From assembly GCA_946413265.1 (NCBI GenBank), contig CAMKJU010000005.1, positions 1-64,000 of the forward strand: DNA of 64,000 nt, in the 5' to 3' direction. The notes below the pieces were generated by a model, which was not told where the DNA came from, made no database searches, and saw only the letters and a list, made by a program, of their open reading frames with translations. The position numbers and the translations under genes are program-made. Of this stretch, positions 31,697 to 42,231 are shown one piece after another. Source of the DNA: an uncultured Lentisphaerota bacterium. Lineage in GTDB: Bacteria > Verrucomicrobiota > Kiritimatiellia > RFP12 > UBA1067. The first letter of the stretch is position 1; the number at the start of each line of letters is the position of its first letter.

Positions 31697-33454
31697 ATGG
31701 CTAAGAAGCGCACAGACCTCAAGATACCTTACGGCGTGTCGGATTTCAGGCGGATCCGCAGGGAGGGGTACTACTACGTCGACAAGACGGAGTACCTTGC
31801 GCAGATGGAGGCGCGGGACAGTTTCATCTTCTTCGTCCGCCCGCGCCGGTTCGGCAAGTCGCTCTTCATCTCGATGATGGAGAGCTACTACGACCTCAAT
31901 CGGAAAAAGGACTTCAAGAAACTCTTCGGCGATCTCTGGATCGGCAAGTACCCCACGGAGAACGCCAACCGCTTCATGACACTGAAACTCGACTTCTCGA
32001 AAGTCGGAGGCACTGGTGAGGTGCTGGAGCGGGCGTTCGAGGATCATATCAGCAAGCAACTTGATGATATGGTGTTGCGATATCCGTCGTGCTTCGACGC
32101 TGAATTCCGCGCTTCGTTTACAGGGCAGCCAGCGTCTGGAAAGCTTGCCGACATTGTCAACAAGGCTCGCCGTTCCAGTATCCCCCTATACCTGATCATC
32201 GACGAGTACGACAACTTCACGAACCAGATGATCCGCGCGGCGGGGGTGACGGACTACCGCAAGATTACGCATGGCGCGGGGTTCTACCGCAACTGGTTCA
32301 AGAAGTTCAAGGGCGAGTTCGACCGTATTTTCATGACGGGCGTCTCGCCCGTTACGCTGGATGACCTCACGAGCGGCTTCAACATTGCAAAGAACCTCTC
32401 CCTTGACGCCTACTGCAACGCCACGCTCGGTTTCTCGACAGCGGAGGCCGTGAAGATGTTCTCCGATTTCAAGGGTACGGGAAGGTTCACGCACGGCGAT
32501 CCCGTGGCGATCGTCGAGTCCATCAAGCCCTGGTATGACGGCTACTGCTTCGCGAAGAAGAAGGTGGGCGTGGAGTGCGTGTTCAACTCCGACATGACGC
32601 TCTACTACCTCAAGAGCCTTGTCGAGACGGGCGAACCGCCTGAGAACATGGTGGATGCCAACATCAAGACGGACTATGACAAGCTCAAGACGATCTCCGA
32701 CCTCCAGCGTACCGTGTTCAAGATGGAGCCCCTTGAGGCTCTGCCGATGACGGAGCAGGCCGTCGCCAAGGGCGGCGTCCAGTTCCCGCTCGTGGAGTCG
32801 TTCCCCGCCGAGGCGATCGTCAAGCCCGAGAATTTCCGGTCGCTCTTCTTCTACTACGGGCTTCTCTCGATGGCTGGACGCAAGATGGGCGCGACGGTGT
32901 TCGCCGTGCCGAACGCTTGCGTGGAGAAGCAGATATACAGTTACCTTCGCGACCGGTATTTCCCGCCATCGAAGAGCTTCCTAGACTGGGACGCCGCAGC
33001 GCAGTCCTTCGCCTACGAGGGCAAGTGGAAGGAGTTCTTTGAGCTTGTCTCCAAGAACTTCGCGGAGACGACGCCGATACGCGGCGGCATCGATGGCGAG
33101 GTGCGCATGCAGGGGTACTTCCAGTGCGAGATGGGGCATCTGCCGCAGTTCATCACATGTCCTGAACTGGAGATGTCGCACGGCAACTGCGACTTCTTCC
33201 TCTTCCCGGAGCGCCACTACTACGGCGACGTGCTGCACAGCTACATCGTCGAGTTCAAGTACCTCAAGAAGGGCGCGAAGAAAGCGGAACTGGATGCGCA
33301 GCGCAAGGAAGGGGGCGCGCAGCTGCAGGCGTACGCGAAGGACAAGAAGATCCCTGCGCTCGCGAAGGGCACGACACTCCATCTCATCCTCGTCCAATAC
33401 CGTGGTCCCAAGATGTGCACCTGCGAACTTGTGGGTGAGAAGCGGTACGAATGA
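31697..33454 (+). CDS. AAA-ATPase-like / PD-(D/E)XK nuclease protein
   Basis: The 585-residue protein has the two parts of the AAA-ATPase-like (PF09820) plus DUF1703 nuclease (PF08011) family. Near the N-terminus are IPYGVSDFRRIRREGYYYVDKT-type residues and the P-loop-like RPRRFGKSL (48-56). The Walker B-like motif is LIIDEYDNF. The middle contains KPWYDGYCF, typical of the family. The C-terminal PD-(D/E)XK part shows CDFFLFPE, then IVEFKYLK and a Q-containing LQAYA helix. The biological role of the family is not established; copies are multiplied in gut Bacteroidetes and PVC genomes. A longer frame extends upstream to 31583, but the -10 at 31685-31690 fixes the start at 31697. A divergent relative is encoded on the minus strand at 61515-63077. 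Confidence 0.88.
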   Translation: MAKKRTDLKIPYGVSDFRRIRREGYYYVDKTEYLAQMEARDSFIFFVRPRRFGKSLFISMMESYYDLNRKKDFKKLFGDLWIGKYPTENANRFMTLKLDFSKVGGTGEVLERAFEDHISKQLDDMVLRYPSCFDAEFRASFTGQPASGKLADIVNKARRSSIPLYLIIDEYDNFTNQMIRAAGVTDYRKITHGAGFYRNWFKKFKGEFDRIFMTGVSPVTLDDLTSGFNIAKNLSLDAYCNATLGFSTAEAVKMFSDFKGTGRFTHGDPVAIVESIKPWYDGYCFAKKKVGVECVFNSDMTLYYLKSLVETGEPPENMVDANIKTDYDKLKTISDLQRTVFKMEPLEALPMTEQAVAKGGVQFPLVESFPAEAIVKPENFRSLFFYYGLLSMAGRKMGATVFAVPNACVEKQIYSYLRDRYFPPSKSFLDWDAAAQSFAYEGKWKEFFELVSKNFAETTPIRGGIDGEVRMQGYFQCEMGHLPQFITCPELEMSHGNCDFFLFPERHYYGDVLHSYIVEFKYLKKGAKKAELDAQRKEGGAQLQAYAKDKKIPALAKGTTLHLILVQYRGPKMCTCELVGEKRYE

Positions 33455-33495
33455 TTGGCAACACACCAACACCGCAGGGAACGCGGAATTTATGA

Positions 33496-33501
33496 TATAC
33501 T
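33496..33501 (+). promoter_or_regulatory. Extended -10 box of the sigma factor-protease unit, leaderless type
   Basis: TGA-TATACT lies seven bases before the ATG at 33509. There is no Shine-Dalgarno sequence and no clear -35. Confidence 0.7.
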
Positions 33502-33508
33502 GTTTGCC

Positions 33509-34201
33509 ATGCGACAAATGAGGAAATCTCCGACAAACAGTGACGGTTACGCTGAAAGGCTGTCCGAGCACGAGATCTACGAGCTGATGAAGCTCCATGA
33601 CGATCTCGCCTGGCGTCTCGTGTGGGAAAAGGCCGTCTTGGCCGAGGCGAAGTCCCTCCGCAGCGCGCGCATGGCGCGCGAATGGGGCGTGACGCCCGAG
33701 GAACTGATGGGCATCCTCTACGAGGACATGATCGCCAAGAAGAAAATCGAGCTGTTCCGCGACGACGGCGGGAGCCTGTGGGGATGGCTGCGGCAGTACG
33801 TGCGGGGGTACATCCGGCGGGCGAATCCGGCTGCGCGTGGGGAGGTTTCGCTAGAGGGGGCGGACGATTCCGACTTCGGGGACGAAGAGGGCGGGGCGAG
33901 CTATACGGATAAAATTTCAAAAATGCTGTCAGATGCGCAGGGCCGGGACGCCAATCCCTCTGAAGACCCTGCGATGCGACGGCGGGAGGAGTGGGCCCTT
34001 GTGCAGACCTGCTTCGGCGATCTCTGGAAGGAGAATCCCCTCCGGGCCTACGTCCACCTGCTGAAACTTCGCTTGAACCTGTCTTCAATGGAAATCAAAA
34101 ACATGCTCGGCATCAGCTCGGAGGCGAACGTGGACCAGTTGTTCTCCCGCGCGCTGAAAGACATGAGAAAGTTGAAGGATGAACATGAAGAACGCGATTG
34201 A
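33509..34201 (+). CDS. ECF-like RNA polymerase sigma factor
   Basis: The 230-residue protein is organised like a small sigma-70 family member. Residues about 55-100 match region 2: a helical ELMGILYEDMIAKKKIELF then GSLWGWLRQYVRGYIRR, comparable with the L-x-x-x-x-x-F-D-x-x-x-S-L-x-x-W-L segment of ECF sigma factors. An acidic linker (about 105-150) follows. The last 60 residues contain a region-4 helix-turn-helix (LNLSSMEIKNMLGISSEANVDQLFSRALKDMRKL). The match is by architecture, and it is a divergent member. It opens a tight unit: the next gene overlaps its end by 17 bases and the papain-like protease gene follows one base later, so it probably directs transcription of this unit or of a stress regulon. 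No classical anti-sigma gene is visible. Confidence 0.72.
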   Translation: MRQMRKSPTNSDGYAERLSEHEIYELMKLHDDLAWRLVWEKAVLAEAKSLRSARMAREWGVTPEELMGILYEDMIAKKKIELFRDDGGSLWGWLRQYVRGYIRRANPAARGEVSLEGADDSDFGDEEGGASYTDKISKMLSDAQGRDANPSEDPAMRRREEWALVQTCFGDLWKENPLRAYVHLLKLRLNLSSMEIKNMLGISSEANVDQLFSRALKDMRKLKDEHEERD

Positions 34202-34703
34202 AGAAGAGAAAGTCGTCATGACGGCCGACGAGGCGGCGTTCATCGACCGCTTCGTCGCGGAGCACTGCCGTCCGCATGCCGTGGTGATGGCGGAACGCCT
34301 GCGGGACTTCGTGTCCAAGCGGCAGATGGCGTTGTTTTCAGCGGACGACGGTCCGGCGTTCGCGCTGGCGGCGGGGCCGTCGGCAAAGGCACCGGCGTCC
34401 GTCAAGGCCCCGGACGAGCCGGTGACGTTCGTTTTCGCCTCGGAGGGCGATGAGGATGCGCCTGGCGCCTGGCGGGCCGAGCTCGCGGTGCCGCCCGGCG
34501 CGACGGCGGAAACGCCGTTGACGCTGAAGGTAGGCGGCCGGGATGTTGCGGGGGTGTTTGCGCTCTCCGGCGTAAAGCTGCCGCTCATGGACGGTGCGGC
34601 GGAGATACCGTTCGGGGTGTTCCTTGCTGGCATCAAGGATACGGACGTGTCGCTCCGCCGTCCCGGCGGCGACGCGGTGAAGGGAAAGCTGCTGTTCTTC
34701 TGA
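34185..34703 (+). CDS. Unknown protein linking sigma factor and protease genes
   Basis: A protein of about 172 residues with no signal peptide or membrane segment. The ATG at 34179 is possible, but GAAGGA at 34174-34179 is well placed for 34185, giving MKNAIEEEK. The N-terminal 50 residues are helical and charged (DEAAFIDRFVAEH, AERLRDFVSKRQ), followed by an Ala/Pro-rich linker and a C-terminal beta domain of about 90 residues (VTFVFASEGDE, WRAELAVPP, TLKVGG, GVFLAGIKDTDVSL). The overlap with the sigma factor gene implies coupled translation, so it could be its binding partner (anti-sigma-like role) or a substrate of the protease. Both ideas are inference, and I recognise no family. Confidence 0.7.
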   Translation: MKNAIEEEKVVMTADEAAFIDRFVAEHCRPHAVVMAERLRDFVSKRQMALFSADDGPAFALAAGPSAKAPASVKAPDEPVTFVFASEGDEDAPGAWRAELAVPPGATAETPLTLKVGGRDVAGVFALSGVKLPLMDGAAEIPFGVFLAGIKDTDVSLRRPGGDAVKGKLLFF

Positions 34704-34704
34704 C

Positions 34705-36363
34705 ATGTCCGCGGCTCCCTACATCTTTCCGGCGCAGCAGGCGGAGTTCCTGCGCGCACTTAGGGATGGCCGCTACCGCGCGCCGGCCCGCACGCGCAAC
34801 GTGCCCGCGTCCACGTCCCTCGTCTCGAAGATGCCTCCCATCTACGAGCAGGCTCTGCGCGGCACGTGCGTGGCGAACGCCGTCACGGCGATGCTGGAGT
34901 ACTACGAGGACTGCAAGATGCGCCTCAGCGTGCAGTACCTCTTCGCCGCGACGAAGGAGGTCGAGCGCGCGGCGATCGAGCGTAACCTCCTGCGTCTGCG
35001 CACGGGGGAGCCGCTTGATCCAGCCTTCGAACTCGCGCTCCACTCTAAGCTGCTCCAGCTGCGGATGATGGCGGATGCGAACGGGGGCATCAACACGCCC
35101 GTGATGCGTCCCTACCTCACGCAATTCGAGGAGACGGTGCGGACTCGGTACGAGGCGATGGATGGCAGCCTGCTCCGGTCGTGCTTCAACGTGCTCGAGT
35201 TCCAGGGAACGTGCCGTTACGCGCTGTGGCCCTACGCGGGTGTAACCGCCGCACCGCTGTTCGGGGCGGCGGAGAGCGGCGCGCATCCGCCCGGGTCGGA
35301 CGACGACGCGAAGAAGCACCGGGTTCTCTCCGGGCTATACCTGCTGCCCGCGCCGAACAATGTGGACGAGATCCGCAGCATTCTCGCGGGCGTGAACGAT
35401 CGGCGTCCGATGCCCGTATGCGTGACGGTGAGCTTTTTCGAGGGGTGCGACGGCGAGACGTTCTCGTTCCCGCAGACAGAGGAGACGGAGGCCGGCCTTG
35501 CCGCGAAGAACAAGTGGCTGGGCGTGCATGGCATGCTGATCGTGGGGTACGTGGACAGCGCGGCGTCGCCGGGTGGCGGCTACTTCATCGTGCGCAACAG
35601 TCTCGGCGAGGCGTGGGGCAACCGCGGGTACGGCAAGCTGCCCTACGCCTACGTGGCCTGCTTCGCGCTGGAGGCCGGCACGATCCTGCAGGACCTCGTG
35701 GACTACACGGGCGACGGGTACGGCGGGCTCCATGCCGATGGGGCATCCGGGCGGCGGTGTCGCCGGTGGTGGCTTGTTTTCATGAACCTCCTCGTGGGCG
35801 CGGCGCTCGTGGCGGGGACGTGGGCGGTCGTGAAGTGGAATCAAGAGCAGAAATCGCCTGTCCCATCCGCCCCGCCCGTTCCACCGCATCCACCCTACGC
35901 GGAGGTCACTGTGTACGGTCGGGATTCGAAGGTGAATGTGACGTTGCCGCCGCCGTGGAACGAGGTAAAGGGCGTTGCGATCGACGGTGGGGTGGTATTC
36001 CGTCTTCCGGCGAAGACGCGCGCGGACGTGGACGCCATCCGCAGGAAACTCGACGCGGAACCAACGCTGCGCGAGAAGCGCGGCAAGCCGCTGACGTACG
36101 ATCTCGTGTCGTTCTTCGATCTAGTCGCCGATGACGTTGACGACTTGAAGAAGACCATTGGCATGTTCGCGGCGGATCACTTCCTCGTGCGGATCGAGGG
36201 CGAGAGCAACGGCGTGCTACGCGTGTCGACCGTTTCGCCGGCGGGACTGCGGGGGCGGTTGAAGACGATGTTCCGAGTGCAGGATGATGGGAAGAATCGA
36301 TTGATTTTGAAACCGACCACGACAAACGACGTGATGTCAGCCGTGAGGCAGAGGGGGCATTGA
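34705..36363 (+). CDS. Membrane-anchored papain-like (C1) cysteine protease
   Basis: In the 552-residue protein, residues about 35-325 are a papain-fold domain. The catalytic Cys55 lies in QALRGTCVANAV with the oxyanion Gln49, His275 is in GVHGMLIVGY and Asn298 in FIVRNSLGEAWGNRGYG, all in the order and spacing of the C1 family. There is no signal peptide or cleavable prodomain, so the protease domain should be cytoplasmic. One transmembrane helix follows (about 356-378, WWLVFMNLLVGAALVAGTWAVV). A Pro-rich stalk and a C-terminal domain of about 150 residues would then lie in the periplasm and could act as a sensor. It begins one base after the preceding stop. Co-expression with a sigma factor suggests regulated proteolysis; the substrate is unknown. 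Confidence 0.8.
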   Translation: MSAAPYIFPAQQAEFLRALRDGRYRAPARTRNVPASTSLVSKMPPIYEQALRGTCVANAVTAMLEYYEDCKMRLSVQYLFAATKEVERAAIERNLLRLRTGEPLDPAFELALHSKLLQLRMMADANGGINTPVMRPYLTQFEETVRTRYEAMDGSLLRSCFNVLEFQGTCRYALWPYAGVTAAPLFGAAESGAHPPGSDDDAKKHRVLSGLYLLPAPNNVDEIRSILAGVNDRRPMPVCVTVSFFEGCDGETFSFPQTEETEAGLAAKNKWLGVHGMLIVGYVDSAASPGGGYFIVRNSLGEAWGNRGYGKLPYAYVACFALEAGTILQDLVDYTGDGYGGLHADGASGRRCRRWWLVFMNLLVGAALVAGTWAVVKWNQEQKSPVPSAPPVPPHPPYAEVTVYGRDSKVNVTLPPPWNEVKGVAIDGGVVFRLPAKTRADVDAIRRKLDAEPTLREKRGKPLTYDLVSFFDLVADDVDDLKKTIGMFAADHFLVRIEGESNGVLRVSTVSPAGLRGRLKTMFRVQDDGKNRLILKPTTTNDVMSAVRQRGH

Positions 36364-36441: not shown

Positions 36442-36819
36442 ATGAACAGAAAAAGCTTCCTTGTAGCCGCTATGGCCGGTCTGATGGCGGGGTGCGTCGC
36501 CACATACGTGCCGCCCATGGATCGGCGCGTGACGCTTGCGGAAGACCTGGGAACATCGGTGTTCGTGACTGATGTTCGGTGTGTGAAGGGGGCAAGTCCA
36601 TACGCTACGTTCCAAGCGAACGTGGTGAACAACACGTCGCACGACTTGGGCGTGGAGTACAAGGTAGTGTGGCTTGACGCGAACGGCCTCACGATCGACT
36701 CTCTCGTGTCCACCTGGAACAAGATCATGCTTGCTCCCAAGGACGTACAGGCGCTCAAGGGCACGGCATCCACGCCTGACGCCGCCGACATGCTGTTCTA
36801 CGTGCGCAGGTTGCGCTGA
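36442..36819 (+). CDS. YcfL-family (DUF1425) lipoprotein
   Basis: The 125-residue lipoprotein has a lipobox ending LMAGC (Cys18). After it, the YcfL pattern is visible: VTDVRCVK, a strand ATFQANVVNNT, then YKVVWLDANGLTID and a W-x-K-I-M-L-A-P-K-D segment. In E. coli ycfL lies directly upstream of lpoB, and the same order is found here, which supports both assignments. Its exact function is unknown; it is thought to sit in the outer membrane facing the periplasm. It is the first gene of a six-gene operon with gaps of 12-42 bases. Confidence 0.8.
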   Translation: MNRKSFLVAAMAGLMAGCVATYVPPMDRRVTLAEDLGTSVFVTDVRCVKGASPYATFQANVVNNTSHDLGVEYKVVWLDANGLTIDSLVSTWNKIMLAPKDVQALKGTASTPDAADMLFYVRRLR

Positions 36820-36853
36820 CTGTTTCCAAAATCAACTAGAAAGGCAAATCAAA

Positions 36854-37411
36854 ATGAACAAGGCATATTGTGCATTGACCGCTGCCACTCTGGCGGCAAT
36901 GGCTGTAGTTTTCTCTGGCTGCACGACGACGACACGCCGTTATGCGGCGAACGAGACGCGTACTACAGTTGCAGGATTCTCAGAGGAGGACATCAACGAC
37001 ACGATATCCCGCGCAGTTCAGAGCGTCTGCTCGCAGGACCGCATCAAGCTACGGCCCGGGGCGAACCGCGCCGTGATGATCGTGGAGAATGTGCGGAACG
37101 ATACTCTCTCGCGCGGTCGCGACGCAGAGGCGCTCGCAGAGGCGCTTGGGCAATCGTTGCGCGAAGAACTGACGAACGGGAAGAAGGTCATTGTGTACAA
37201 CAAGGAGGCCGCGCAGTATGCGACGGTCAAGGTAGAGCCGCAGTACATCCTTCGCGGGCGCCTTACCCAGCGCAATCTCCGGCAGGACAACGGCGATGTC
37301 CAGATTGAGTACAATCTCAACCTCACGCTGATCGACCTTCAGACCGGACTCGAGTTCTGGCAGAAGCGCGTACATGTCGGCAAGCTGGCCGACGCCGCGA
37401 ACGCCATGTAA
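36854..37411 (+). CDS. lpoB: LpoB-family penicillin-binding protein activator
   Basis: The 185-residue lipoprotein has lipobox VFSGC (Cys23). The mature part matches LpoB (PF13036): GFSEEDINDTISRAV, the NDT/D-A-E-A-L-A-E-A-L-G-Q-S-L-R-E-E-L helix, QYILRGRLTQRN and YNLNLTLIDLQTGLEFWQKR near the end. In E. coli LpoB spans from the outer membrane to stimulate the peptidoglycan synthase PBP1b. The long linker of E. coli LpoB is short here. A longer in-frame extension from 36674 overlaps the upstream gene and has no signal peptide, so I prefer the ATG at 36854, preceded by AAGG. Confidence 0.88.
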   Translation: MNKAYCALTAATLAAMAVVFSGCTTTTRRYAANETRTTVAGFSEEDINDTISRAVQSVCSQDRIKLRPGANRAVMIVENVRNDTLSRGRDAEALAEALGQSLREELTNGKKVIVYNKEAAQYATVKVEPQYILRGRLTQRNLRQDNGDVQIEYNLNLTLIDLQTGLEFWQKRVHVGKLADAANAM

Positions 37412-37445
37412 TCCAATTTCAACCACTCAAGAAAGGAACAAGCAA

Positions 37446-38885
37446 ATGAAGATTCAAACGATTTTCGCCGTGGCGCTCGCAGCGTCCGCCACGTTCGCCC
37501 AGGAAATAGCGCCTTCTGTGCCTTCTGTCGCGCCTACGCCTGCGCCAGCTACCGCTGCAGTTGCCGCGCCCGCGCCAGCTGCCGCGCCTACTGCCGTTGC
37601 CGCGCCCGCAGCAGGACAAGCCGCAGTCGTTGCTGTACAGCCTAGAGTCGCAGCGATTGAAGCCAACAAGGATATCACTGTAGAGGTGAATGCTAAGGAC
37701 AAGCTGGATGACGCTTTCGCAGAATATGCCGAGAAGCGAGGATTCTCATACGGCGAGAAGACTCCTAAAGGGAGCATTTACTACAAAGGATCATCTCCTG
37801 TCGACCAGCATGTTGAATCGGCTTCCTTCATCAAGTCGCGCGCTTTTGCGTACGAGCGTGCGTATCTTAACGCAGTTGGATCGTATGTGATGGACTTCTT
37901 CGGTCGGGAGCTGGCAGAGACATGCATGGAAACGTTCGGAAACCAGTCCTCGAACGCCGAGGAGGCTCCAAAAATGACGCCAGCGGATGTTTCTGAGAAG
38001 ATCGCACTTCTGGCTGACGCAAAGCTTGACAAGGCACTTGCCGACGCGGGGGTGGATCCGTCTAAGTATCAGGGATCCCCTGTCGTCGAGAAGCGCAAGC
38101 TCATGCAGGATACGCTTGTCAAGCGTACTGTCAACAAGGCGCTCCACTCGTCTTCGGGATGTCTGCCCGTGAAGACGTTCGAGTCGCGTGGCACGGACGG
38201 ACGTTACTACATTGGAGTTGTCATCCGGGTCGGGGCCGACTGCACAGAGCTGTCAAAAGCGTTCCGGACCAAGCAGCGCCCTGCGCTCATGCGGGAAGGG
38301 GGATTGACGGTCAAGGAGGCACTTCCCGACACGCCGGAGGAAATCGTGCAGACATTCGGTGTCCGCCTTTACTTCGACGAGACGGGTACGCCCTCATTGC
38401 TTAGCTTTGGGCAGTTCGGTTCTGCCTATAAGGGTAAGAGTGGGCGTATGGCAGAGCGTGCGGAGTTGCAGGCTCAGCGGCAGGCGCGGGCCTTGGCAGA
38501 TTCTGCGCTCACCACGTTCATCAACAGCTTTGCGGATATGACTGATGAGTCGGAACTTTCTGAGGACATTGGCGAATCCCGCCTGTTCCGTGCTGATGGC
38601 ACGGCTACGCCTGAAGAGATGTCCAACATCATAGACATATACCGCAGCAAGATCAAGCAGACGGGGTCGGACACCATGAAGGGACGCACGACAGTCTATG
38701 ATCGGATCGTTAAGCATCCGGCGGGACAGCGAGTCGCCGTGTGCGTGCGTCGCTGGAGTTTTGGCCAGGTTGACTCCGTAAATGAGATCATCAATCAGGG
38801 TGTGCCGCAGGTACCTGTGCCGCAACCGGCGACTCCGAAGTCTTACGACAGCGGCGTTCGTTCTAGCCGCACGTATGACTTCTGA
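37446..38885 (+). CDS. Periplasmic DUF6844-like protein with Ala/Pro-rich linker
   Basis: The 479-residue protein has a signal peptide (MKIQTIFAVALAASATFA). Residues about 20-75 are an Ala-Pro-Val-rich linker, long enough to cross a peptidoglycan layer. A globular domain follows with ESASFIKSRAFAYERAYLNA, a motif that in similar proteins marks a repeated helical core, and a C-terminal half with RAELQAQRQARALAD-S-A-L and QRVAVCVRRWSFGQ. I place it provisionally in the DUF6844 group; function unknown. Another ATG at 37374 lies in the same frame but inside lpoB, and GAAAGGA just before 37446 makes 37446 the better start. As third gene of the operon it probably works in the same outer-membrane/peptidoglycan assembly. 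Confidence 0.65.
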   Translation: MKIQTIFAVALAASATFAQEIAPSVPSVAPTPAPATAAVAAPAPAAAPTAVAAPAAGQAAVVAVQPRVAAIEANKDITVEVNAKDKLDDAFAEYAEKRGFSYGEKTPKGSIYYKGSSPVDQHVESASFIKSRAFAYERAYLNAVGSYVMDFFGRELAETCMETFGNQSSNAEEAPKMTPADVSEKIALLADAKLDKALADAGVDPSKYQGSPVVEKRKLMQDTLVKRTVNKALHSSSGCLPVKTFESRGTDGRYYIGVVIRVGADCTELSKAFRTKQRPALMREGGLTVKEALPDTPEEIVQTFGVRLYFDETGTPSLLSFGQFGSAYKGKSGRMAERAELQAQRQARALADSALTTFINSFADMTDESELSEDIGESRLFRADGTATPEEMSNIIDIYRSKIKQTGSDTMKGRTTVYDRIVKHPAGQRVAVCVRRWSFGQVDSVNEIINQGVPQVPVPQPATPKSYDSGVRSSRTYDF

Positions 38886-38927
38886 TTGAACATATCCCTT
38901 ACCCACACTTTCTAGGGAGCAAGTGCC

Positions 38928-40211
38928 ATGAGAAAACTTGTGATGTCAATAGTATGCCTGTACGCATCGTTCCTTGTGTCGGCGGACGTCCAGTCACCTA
39001 CCGTCCGGGCTGTTGGTGAGGCTAGGAGTTATCGCGCTGCCATCAGCGAGGCACTCGTTACAGCGCTAGAGCAAAATAATGGGTTTACGATAAGCGCAGA
39101 GGAGCGGCAGACGATGGTGCATAACGACTCTGCGACGAACATTTGTGAGAATGGCGCGCTTGATGACCGCACGAAGCTCGAGATGAACGATTCCATAAAC
39201 AAGGACATGCAGAAGTGGGCCAAGGGAAAAATCAGCGGCTATACAGTCCTGTCTGACACGTTCGACCCTGCGACGCGGAAGTACCGTGTGACGCTGGAGG
39301 TTCGCTTCCCGCCGAAGTACACCGGTCCCGGCCGTCCCGAGTCCAACCTGCGGCGCATGGCCGTGAGCCCGTTCAACGTGCAGGGGAATACGTTCAACTG
39401 GTACGGCCAGCCCATCGGTACGGTCGAGTGGTCTGCCGCGCTTGCCGAGCAGTTGAACGTGCGCCTCACGCAGACTCGGAAGTTCACGATGCTCGACCGT
39501 GCCTTCGATCCGGAGATCAACGCCGAGCTGGCGCGCCTTAGCGCGGCAAACGCCGCGCCTGAGGACGCCGCGCGCCTCAACCGCAAGTTGGGCACGGACT
39601 ATCTCGTGGTGGGCATGGTGAAATTCAACGACGTACTGCCTCCTGCCGTGAATCCGCTCACCGACCAACCGTTGCCTCGTGCCTCGTCGCTGTTCGCGGA
39701 AATCACCTACCGTGTTCTGATTGCACCGACCGGGCAGCTCAAATGGACTAACACGATCAGGCTGGACGCGGCGATTTTCGCGGCTGCGGACGCGCGTTCG
39801 TTCGTGTCCATGTCCGCCGAGACGGCGGCCGGAGCGATCTGCGACGACATGATGACGAACATCCTGCCGTTTGAGGTGGTGAAGGTCGTCGGTGACCAGG
39901 TCGTCATCGGCGAAGGCGGAAAGCAGTTGGCCGCAGGCGACCGCTTTACTGTCTGCGCCCTGGGAGAGCCGGTCAAGGATACGAGAACGGGCGAGGTCAT
40001 TGACGAAGTGGAGATTCCGGTTGCAACGGTCGAGGTGACGACCGTCATGCCGAAGCTCAGCTATGCCAAGATCATCGAGGGCGACGCGGCTAAGGTGACG
40101 GTTGGCTCGCGGCTGCGCAGGGTTAAGATGCCGGAGGCGCCCCAGCCGCAGGCACCCATCACAACCACGATCCAGAGCAATGGAGGCGGCGGAGTCGTCG
40201 TCCCGTTTTAA
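38928..40211 (+). CDS. CsgG / FlgT-like outer-membrane-associated protein
   Basis: The 427-residue protein has a signal peptide ending FLVSA. Its N-terminal domain (VRAVGEARSYRAAISEALVTALEQ, followed by KISGYTVL and KYRVTLEVRF) looks like the FlgT/LPP20 N-terminal fold. The central domain resembles the CsgG/FlgT-M periplasmic fold: RRMAVSPF, then TRKFTMLDRAFD and LGTDYLVVGMV. The C-terminal part has GDQVVIGEGGKQLAAGDRFTV, reminiscent of the FlgT SH3-like domain. In Vibrio, FlgT builds a ring at the flagellar base; CsgG is the curli export pore. No flagellar or curli genes occur here, so this may be part of another outer-membrane complex that includes LpoB and COG3014. Confidence 0.7.
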   Translation: MRKLVMSIVCLYASFLVSADVQSPTVRAVGEARSYRAAISEALVTALEQNNGFTISAEERQTMVHNDSATNICENGALDDRTKLEMNDSINKDMQKWAKGKISGYTVLSDTFDPATRKYRVTLEVRFPPKYTGPGRPESNLRRMAVSPFNVQGNTFNWYGQPIGTVEWSAALAEQLNVRLTQTRKFTMLDRAFDPEINAELARLSAANAAPEDAARLNRKLGTDYLVVGMVKFNDVLPPAVNPLTDQPLPRASSLFAEITYRVLIAPTGQLKWTNTIRLDAAIFAAADARSFVSMSAETAAGAICDDMMTNILPFEVVKVVGDQVVIGEGGKQLAAGDRFTVCALGEPVKDTRTGEVIDEVEIPVATVEVTTVMPKLSYAKIIEGDAAKVTVGSRLRRVKMPEAPQPQAPITTTIQSNGGGGVVVPF

Positions 40212-40223
40212 GGAGAAAAAACG

Positions 40224-40745
40224 ATGAAGATCGGTATTGCATTCGCAATGGCATGCGCTGTGTTCGCGGCGACGGCGCAGTTCCAGCCCGGACAGGGCAT
40301 AGCCAACGACCATGCGCGCGGCGGAAATGCCCGCGACGTGGTGTTCGTCGAGCGTGGCGGCGGCAACCCGTACGGATACAGGTCGTATGACACCGCCATC
40401 GGCCTCACCGTGCTGCCTTGGAGCCTCCCGAACGAGGAGTCGTCCGTCACCGGTCTTCGCCTCAACCTCGGTTGGGGCTACTACGCGGGGACGTACGGAC
40501 TCGATCTCGGTGCCTTCTCGAACTCCGGGGAATTCCGCGGGGTTGGCGCGAACTGGATCGGACACTTGGCCGACAAGGACGCCAAGGGCCTCCAGGTCGG
40601 GCTTGTCAACGTCACGGGACACCGTGCCGTCGGGCTTCAGATTGGCCTCGTCAACTACGTGGAGCGTCTGGAAGGCGTGCAGATCGGCCTGCTGAACTTC
40701 GCCACGTCTCAATGGACGTTCCCTTTCATCAACATCGGCTGGTAA
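40224..40745 (+). CDS. LA_2272-type surface repeat protein
   Basis: This 173-residue protein has a signal peptide (MKIGIAFAMACAVFAATAQ). After residue about 115 it consists of repeating beta units: GLQVGLVNVT, GLQIGLVNYV and GVQIGLLNFA, about 18 residues apart. These are the surface repeats of the LA_2272/LA_2273 group described from Leptospira and found in several Gram-negative envelopes. The N-terminal half contains GLRLNLGWGYYAGTYGLDLG, also strand-rich. It starts 12 bases after the previous stop with a TAAGGAG site. Function unknown; likely outer-membrane associated. Confidence 0.7.
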   Translation: MKIGIAFAMACAVFAATAQFQPGQGIANDHARGGNARDVVFVERGGGNPYGYRSYDTAIGLTVLPWSLPNEESSVTGLRLNLGWGYYAGTYGLDLGAFSNSGEFRGVGANWIGHLADKDAKGLQVGLVNVTGHRAVGLQIGLVNYVERLEGVQIGLLNFATSQWTFPFINIGW

Positions 40746-40758
40746 GAAGAGGTCTCCT

Positions 40759-42231
40759 ATGAGGTTCTGGAAAATCGCCGCTGCGGCATTCGCGCTTGCG
40801 AGTGCCGCAGGTTGCCGCACGACGAAGGAAGTGCTGGACGATTACGAGGTCGCGCTATCAACTGGCAACTACGCCGCTCCGGTGCAGGAGACGGCCGAGC
40901 TTGCCTCGAAGAAGGACGGATCGCAGCTCCTATGGCAGTTATTGGCCGGCGGTGCCATGTACATGGCGGACGACAAGGGAAATGCCATTGCCATGTTCGA
41001 TTCGGCCGAGGACGCGATGCACGCAAACGACGCTACGTCTGTGTTCGCCAGGGGTGGAGAGGGTGCGCTCGCAATGATGACGAATGACCGGGCCTTCGAC
41101 TACGACGGCGGTGGCCAGGATCGTGTCTTCACATGCCTGTACAAGGCAATAGACTACATGACGTTAGGAAGGCCGGATGCGGCGCGTACAGAGTTGAACC
41201 GCGCGGGGCAGCATCAGGAGAACTGGCTGTGGGAGCGCAGAAAGGACATTGCGGCTGCATCCAAGAAAATGAGGGCGGACGCTGACGCCTACGTGAGGCA
41301 GAACAACGCACCGCAGGAAGGGAACCGCGATGCGCAGGTGGGCACCGTGCTGGGCGACGCTGCTTTCCGTTCGCAGGTGCAGGCGCAGTGCAGGTTCGAC
41401 CCCGCCACGTCCGGCAACCTGGATGCCTTGGCCCCCAGAGACTACATGAATGCATACGCGGAACATGTAACCGGAGTGTTCCGGTGGCTGAACGGCGATG
41501 GTGCGCGCAACTATCTCAAGGACGTAGCGGCCCTTGTGCCGGGTAATTCGGTAGCAGCACGCGACTTCGCCGAGGTGGATAGCGGGATCAAGCCATCCAA
41601 CCAGGTGTGGATATACGTCGAAGACGGCCTCTGTCCATGTCGGGAAGAGTGGCGGGTGGACCTCCCTCTGGGATTGCTGCCGTTTGTAAGGAGGTACGTT
41701 ATCTATGCAGGCATGGCGTTGCCATATCTGCGTGAACGCGCGCATGGTGCCATAAACTGGTCGGTGGCGGCAGGAGGCCAGAACGTGCCGATGTATCAGC
41801 TTGCCAACGTTGATGCGCTTCTGAAGACGGAGTACGACGTGTACATGCGCGGTGCGCTTACCCGCGAAATCACGCGCACGATTGTCAAGGTCGGCGTGCA
41901 GGTGGCGCTTGGCGTTGCGGCGGACGCCGCAGAAAGGCGTCAGTACAAGAAGGGGAAGTCAGGAGGCGACTATCTTGCGCTTAAGCTGGCGCAGATGGGC
42001 GTGGCCACATGGGCCGCGACGACAACCGCAGCCGACCTGCGTAGCTGGACCGCATTGCCGAAGACCGTGAAGGTGGCGCGTATAGACTGTCCGGCGGACG
42101 GACGGCTGGAGGTGGTGGCCGACGGCCAGCGTATCCAGCTGTCGGTGCAGCCAGGCAACAACTGGATGGTGTTTCTCCGCAAGCCGGGTCCGTCGGCATA
42201 TCCCGTCGTGAAGATGGCGAAGTTCAAGTGA
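40759..42231 (+). CDS. COG3014-family lipoprotein
   Basis: The 490-residue lipoprotein has a lipobox around ASAAGC (Cys19). The N-terminal half is helical and TPR-like (LLWQLLAGGAMYMADDKGNAI, FDSAEDAM). The central segment VFTCLYKAIDYMTLGRPDAARTELNRAGQ and the strand VWIYVEDGLCPCREEWRVDLPL are the characteristic COG3014 blocks. COG3014 genes are found next to ycfL and lpoB in several Gram-negative genomes, and that grouping recurs here. I take it to be a structural or regulatory partner of the LpoB system. It is the last gene of the operon; the following gene has its own leader. Confidence 0.8.
   Translation: MRFWKIAAAAFALASAAGCRTTKEVLDDYEVALSTGNYAAPVQETAELASKKDGSQLLWQLLAGGAMYMADDKGNAIAMFDSAEDAMHANDATSVFARGGEGALAMMTNDRAFDYDGGGQDRVFTCLYKAIDYMTLGRPDAARTELNRAGQHQENWLWERRKDIAAASKKMRADADAYVRQNNAPQEGNRDAQVGTVLGDAAFRSQVQAQCRFDPATSGNLDALAPRDYMNAYAEHVTGVFRWLNGDGARNYLKDVAALVPGNSVAARDFAEVDSGIKPSNQVWIYVEDGLCPCREEWRVDLPLGLLPFVRRYVIYAGMALPYLRERAHGAINWSVAAGGQNVPMYQLANVDALLKTEYDVYMRGALTREITRTIVKVGVQVALGVAADAAERRQYKKGKSGGDYLALKLAQMGVATWAATTTAADLRSWTALPKTVKVARIDCPADGRLEVVADGQRIQLSVQPGNNWMVFLRKPGPSAYPVVKMAKFK

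Follow-up and report, generated by a model that had tools for sequence, protein, structure and literature searches.

Within the window, the 64,000-nucleotide stretch of DNA from a rumen bacterium that was analysed here, a sigma-like gene, a middle gene, and a protease gene lie together on the + strand and probably constitute a protease-gated sigma switch, apparently one for stress, in which a membrane-anchored protease cuts an anti-sigma factor and frees a sigma factor; there are no binding, cleavage, or transcription data. As we envisage it, the soluble middle protein would belong to an undescribed anti-sigma family and hold the ECF-type sigma inactive. Members of that family would share a constant C-terminal beta domain, preceded by an N-terminal ZAS finger in another class and by zinc-less helices in the lineage of the window. 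A trigger, most likely one arising at the membrane, would activate the cytosol-facing papain-type protease, which would then cut the anti-sigma factor, possibly in its linker near L61-A62-A63-G64, and the freed sigma would redirect transcription. The features on which this model rests are as follows.

33493..33501, + strand: extended -10-like promoter element TG-A-TATACT, 5' of the sigma gene (read from the sequence; a consensus inference only)
33509..34201 (ATG at 33509 or 33518), + strand: ECF-type sigma factor (NCBIfam match, AlphaFold model, Foldseek)
about 33566-33820 and about 33968-34195, + strand: sigma2 domain and sigma4 domain, respectively
34185..34703, + strand: middle protein, 172 aa, soluble, candidate anti-sigma factor (family with 13 ZAS-bearing homologues; sigma neighbour in 54/56 loci)
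34224..34340, + strand: helices at the N-terminus of the middle protein (residues 14-52), in which C28-R29 is invariant (model, alignments)
34365..34376, + strand: L61-A62-A63-G64, a conserved motif of a linker that is otherwise disordered (alignment, model)
34416..34700, + strand: beta domain at the C-terminus (residues 78-172), which is constant across the family (profile match to ZAS-type homologues)
34705..36363, + strand: membrane-anchored papain-family (C1) protease, 552 aa, with catalytic Q49, C55, H275, and N298 (PF00112; invariant residues)
35776..35832, + strand: single transmembrane helix of the protease, residues 358-376, N-terminus cytosolic (19-residue hydropathy 2.02, N-flank rich in Arg)
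35833..36360, + strand: C-terminal periplasmic-side domain, variable between relatives and absent in G022 (alignment; L037 ends soon after the helix)

The reading frames of the three genes are those given by an earlier, sequence-only reading of this DNA, as are the 17-nt overlap between the end of the sigma gene (34201) and the start of the middle gene (34185) and the one-base gap between the end of the middle gene (34703) and the start of the protease gene (34705). The start of the unit, which that reading had put at 33496, has to be moved: there is no start codon at this position, which is the first base of the -10-like TATACT. The sigma gene likely starts at the ATG at 33509 or 33518, and the sigma genes of relatives begin just upstream of a conserved LSEHE segment. 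TATGGTATAAT is found at the same place in relatives in which no operon gene precedes the sigma gene. An ECF-like autoregulated promoter was sought before the sigma genes and none was recognised, the only elements seen being housekeeping-like extended -10 elements. In close relatives the sigma gene lies directly 3' of a T2SSG-type gene. These two are separated in the window by a gene with AAA-ATPase_like (PF09820) and PDDEXK_9 domains (31697-33454), which is missing at that position from near relatives and looks like an insertion; behind it, the window sigma gene appears to have a promoter of its own. Downstream of the triad, positions 36442-42231 hold DUF1425 (YcfL), LpoB, DUF6844, and more lipoprotein-like genes, which are mostly kept across the genus.

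The predicted structure of the gene 1 product is that of an ECF-type sigma factor, with sigma2 and sigma4 joined by a linker. At the sequence level, its NCBIfam sigma match is weak (E 3e-5) and covers only the region-4 part, and no Pfam sigma region rises above cut-off in the window gene; a homologue in L222 passes PF08281 (26.1 versus a cut-off of 25.7 bits). A sequence profile of the sigma protein found no relative in the PDB, and consequently the structural route was taken. The AlphaFold model, which was made with 15 homologues and has a pLDDT of 73, consists of two helical domains with a disordered linker between them, and a Foldseek search of the PDB with this model returned sigma factors for all of the top ~30 matches, including AlgU and SigE at a probability of 1.00. 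Matched separately, the two domains correspond to sigma4 of SigL (TMt 0.82) and sigma2 of SigE (TMt 0.51). An absence of region 2 and region 4 folds would have refuted the ECF-like identity first proposed for this gene, and both folds were found.

Gene 3 encodes a protease of the C1 papain family. Pfam PF00112 (Peptidase_C1) scores 24.5 bits versus a cut-off of 20.7, and the four catalytic residues, whose positions the earlier reading had given correctly, are invariant in an alignment of 16 homologues; in a more distant homologue, L060, Asp replaces the catalytic Asn. The window protease, which Pfam places in C1, is of neither the CHAT nor the Lon type. As was also proposed from the sequence, the protein has no signal peptide and one transmembrane helix, and the helix was found in 16/16 homologues scanned. 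The one helix, its Arg-rich N-flank, and the missing signal peptide together place the catalytic domain in the cytosol. The further suggestion that a periplasmic sensor may control the protease survives only in part. The membrane anchor is kept, but the region past the helix differs between subclades in the alignment, is missing from one relative, and gives way in the other class to a C-terminal membrane-spanning tail, usually a hairpin, with which the papain proteins end. Thus, the conserved feature of the protease is a membrane anchor rather than any particular periplasmic sensor.

The middle protein had been assigned to no known family, and indeed none of the curated families (Pfam, NCBIfam) matched it. 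No transmembrane helix was called in it (maximum 19-residue hydropathy 1.37). Structure prediction, which the earlier reading had recommended, gave a helical-plus-beta model of two N-terminal helices, a disordered linker (residues 48-72, pLDDT below 50), and a beta domain, and a fold search of PDB and viral libraries returned nothing significant. The evidence as to its function comes from its homologues. The ZAS zinc finger is a hallmark of anti-sigma factors. Thirteen homologues, three from the family of the window (G023, G032, and G249) and ten from loci in another class of the phylum, have a ZAS finger (C-x~23-H-x3-C-x2-C) ahead of this beta domain; the finger is N-terminal, stands in place of the two helices, and has four zinc ligands that are invariant in 13/13. 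Pfam zf-HC2 passes in two of these, L225 and L233 (25.5 and 31.3 versus a cut-off of 22.2 bits), and a profile built from triad proteins only matches the ZAS-type homologues by the beta domain, with E values from 7e-20 to 5e-7. The C..H-x3-C-x2-C ligands are absent from the middle protein of the window, which retains only C28 and H31 as possible remnants; on this comparison of sequences it is a ZAS relative that has lost its zinc ligands and not itself a ZAS protein. Because 13 homologues join the ZAS domain to the same beta domain, an anti-sigma role for the middle protein, first put forward only as a candidate, is now strongly supported, its binding to and inhibition of sigma being inferred.

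By profile searches, the beta-domain family is present in 80/346 genomes of the class and also in further families of the phylum. In the loci inspected, a sigma gene adjoins the beta-domain gene on the same strand in 54/56, and a fusion of the two in G040 ties the beta domain directly to sigma. This fusion (L123:10008-11108) lies in a cluster with AAA, YbjN-like, and Hsp70-like genes. In genus g6 the beta domain occurs in about 50 genomes, and the g6 loci that were read usually consist of a sigma gene and a 105-residue beta domain alone, with no protease nearby; consequently, the sigma/short beta-protein pair can work without a protease. Both the fusion and the many short, protease-free partners in g6 would also fit if the beta-domain protein were a positive partner or cofactor of sigma, with the N-terminal domain and the protease tuning that partnership, and some ECF sigma factors do need C-terminal extensions for activity (PMC8999054). 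However, the ZAS fingers that 13 homologues carry on the same chain are an anti-sigma signature, and a positive partnership is accordingly held to be improbable.

The order of the three genes recurs more often than chance would allow. Each of the 15 remaining genus genomes has the protease, and the contiguous triad is found in 12/16 genus genomes and in G022, G025, G026, G194, G240, and G270; the order sigma-middle-protease is also seen in further genera and in another class, and other genera also retain the 17-nt overlap of the sigma gene with the middle gene. The proposed unit would have been refuted had its homologues not been adjacent elsewhere, and a survey of neighbourhoods found them adjacent in many genomes. 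In G003, G004, and G014 both parts are kept on different contigs, the sigma and middle genes together and the protease on another, which still favours the model. Against it stands G008, a 90% complete genome with the protease gene but neither partner gene detected; the protease-free pairs of g6, the lost zinc ligands, and the lack of a recognised autoregulated promoter also weigh against the model. A C1 protease adjoins the beta-domain gene in 26 of the 56 loci, in two classes. Within the family of the window, an adjacent protease goes together with a long middle protein that has the N-terminal helices, and genomes with the short, beta-only form are without the protease; in G270, which has both forms, the protease lies only beside the long one. 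It should be noted that this co-occurrence is no tally of independent events, since the whole cassette may move together.

In the other class, the gene downstream of the anti-sigma gene encodes a papain at 9 loci, a subtilisin at 4, and an M48 metalloprotease at 3. Among the first ten loci, the protease is next or nearly next downstream and is C1 in seven, S8 in two, and M48 in one; the two S8 genes lie behind a GAF or HD+GAF gene. Seven held-out loci were then found by a second search that used the anti-sigma sequence only. Sigma is directly upstream in 7/7 of these and a protease is downstream in 6/6 readable ones (two each of C1, S8, and M48), the seventh being cut off by the contig end. 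A crude motif scan of 177 ORFs from other loci gave six loose HExxH-type matches and no C1 or S8 signature, and the base rate is therefore low. The protease swap suggests anti-sigma proteolysis as the common function and is the strongest support for it.

The same swap bears on another explanation, which retains the anti-sigma role of the middle protein but has the protease degrade sigma itself, as a shut-off, or act on envelope proteins as the output of the system. That ECF sigma factors can be shut off by proteolysis is known from AntA/ClpXP (PMC8999054). Furthermore, in G003, G004, and G008 the protease occurs in other contexts, beside efflux or rsmI genes. However, the presence of the protease tracks the long middle protein and not sigma, and the fact that one position may hold a C1, an S8, or an M48 enzyme suggests a cytosolic substrate, encoded there, that all three share. 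Sigma degradation or an envelope output is thus considered unlikely, and cleavage of the anti-sigma factor remains the preferred reading. Where such cleavage might take place is an inference as well. In the linker, L61, A62, and A63 are invariant in 15 homologues, and the L61-A62-A63-G64 motif is a candidate cleavage or docking site, its role being inferred; a similar motif is present in ZAS-type homologues. Loci with other protease types have the motif in similar form too, and it may therefore serve the structure instead of marking a cut.

At four papain-type triads of the other class (L216:740-3416, L222:8021-11762, L230:5971-7936, and L231:5778-8271), genes for coiled-coil proteins and AAA ATPases follow. 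The coiled-coil proteins give weak Snf7 (ESCRT-III) matches (E 4e-4 and 2e-4), the ATPases are extended at their N-termini and the one in L216 weakly matches Vps4_C, and a bacterial ESCRT-III/Vps4-like operon is possible. A membrane-related signal is suggested, without proof, by these Snf7-like and Vps4-like genes, by the anchor of the protease, by the YcfL/LpoB envelope cluster downstream of the window triad, and by the efflux genes beside the separated parts in G003 and G004. The triad could represent an undescribed, phylum-wide class of sigma switch in which a dedicated protease of freely exchanged fold (papain, subtilisin, or M48) cleaves the members of one anti-sigma family (a ZAS or helical segment plus the new beta domain) and membrane damage is read out. 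This broader proposal is tentative and is judged slightly less likely than not.

The ZAS-type loci of G249, G032, and G023 (L169:1-2084, L090:1-978, L092:1-978, and L178) include a membrane protein in place of the window protease. The third gene of G023, G032, and G249 has an S170/K214 pair at Lon-like spacing, also seen in L178; a Lon-like reading was considered, but the profile comparison with Lon was not significant (E 0.055, probability 1%), and it is a lead only. The transmembrane and repeat-rich C-terminal part of this membrane protein is also found behind TIR-like N-terminal domains (L179:997-3159, L180:946-3144, and L235:310-4836), and thus the cytosolic domain is exchanged.

That relatives of this alternative third gene share their C-terminal part with TIR-like proteins could point to an anti-phage or conflict system, with the papain domain as toxic effector and sigma as a regulatory side gene. 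Conflict neighbourhoods described as EACC2-caspase likewise bring a protease gene together with an ECF sigma gene (PMC8195603). Their peptidase is of the caspase type and their partner is a TPR/DUF1822 protein, with no ZAS-beta anti-sigma described (PMC8195603). Against a conflict role, the triad keeps a fixed chromosomal place across the genus, beside the fmt-deoA-T2SSG and YcfL-LpoB genes, no CRISPR-like direct repeats were seen in the 20-50 kb scanned, and PADLOC families were unmatched except for a weak match of the middle protein (E 0.03). The defence reading was dropped after that comparison and is regarded as very improbable.

In RseA/DegS/RseP and RsiW-type regulated intramembrane proteolysis, the anti-sigma factor spans the membrane and is cut first outside and then within it. 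In contrast, the putative anti-sigma factor here is soluble, without a helix, and the protease bears the membrane anchor. ChrR, RsrA, and RshA are soluble ZAS anti-sigma factors. Like them, homologues of the middle protein carry a C..H-x3-C-x2-C domain beside an ECF sigma gene; unlike them, the window protein has no zinc ligands, and there is an extra conserved beta domain and a dedicated protease gene. CalpL is a Lon protease with a SAVED domain that acts in type III CRISPR on the anti-sigma factor CalpT, CalpS being the sigma. The type III-E craspase Csx29 has a CHAT protease fold and is activated by RNA-guided Cas7-11. The sequence-only reading knew of no named system with this layout, but its logic does exist, with unrelated proteases, in both of these systems. 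In CalpL-CalpT-CalpS, a Lon protease in a CRISPR locus frees sigma by cutting the anti-sigma factor (PMC12751052); in contrast, the protease of our unit is papain-family and membrane-anchored and has no SAVED sensor, the surrounding 20-50 kb lack CRISPR-like repeats, and the anti-sigma family, with a ZAS or helical segment plus a beta domain, differs. In Csx29-Csx30-CASP-sigma, a cysteine protease, its anti-sigma substrate, and an ECF sigma are encoded together (PMC10028731), a grouping that the present locus shares, although Csx29, with its CHAT fold, is neither a papain nor membrane-anchored. The unit is a member of neither system; by analogy, the simplest reading would be that it works like them.

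No description of a papain/sigma triad was found in the published literature. To our knowledge, release of sigma by a dedicated soluble protease is known so far chiefly from systems linked to CRISPR. In the present unit this way of release seems to be built into the chromosome as a conserved switch, in which three unrelated protease families fill one slot, and such swapping suggests a modular wiring of new signals into bacterial transcription. It would also give the papain-like proteases of rumen Kiritimatiellae a function and a predicted substrate, testable with three cloned genes. Since the sigma-inhibitor pair is kept while the enzyme often differs in relatives, the idea that the inhibitor is cut is itself testable.

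Two further observations may be mentioned. In G205 (L061, L132, and L172) the triad is decayed, with sigma in two frames, a truncated middle gene, and a protease gene that runs into unrelated sequence. Elsewhere, a PP2C phosphatase gene (L093:7881-8771) lies directly 3' of a pair made up of sigma and a short beta protein, a hint of a further mode of control.
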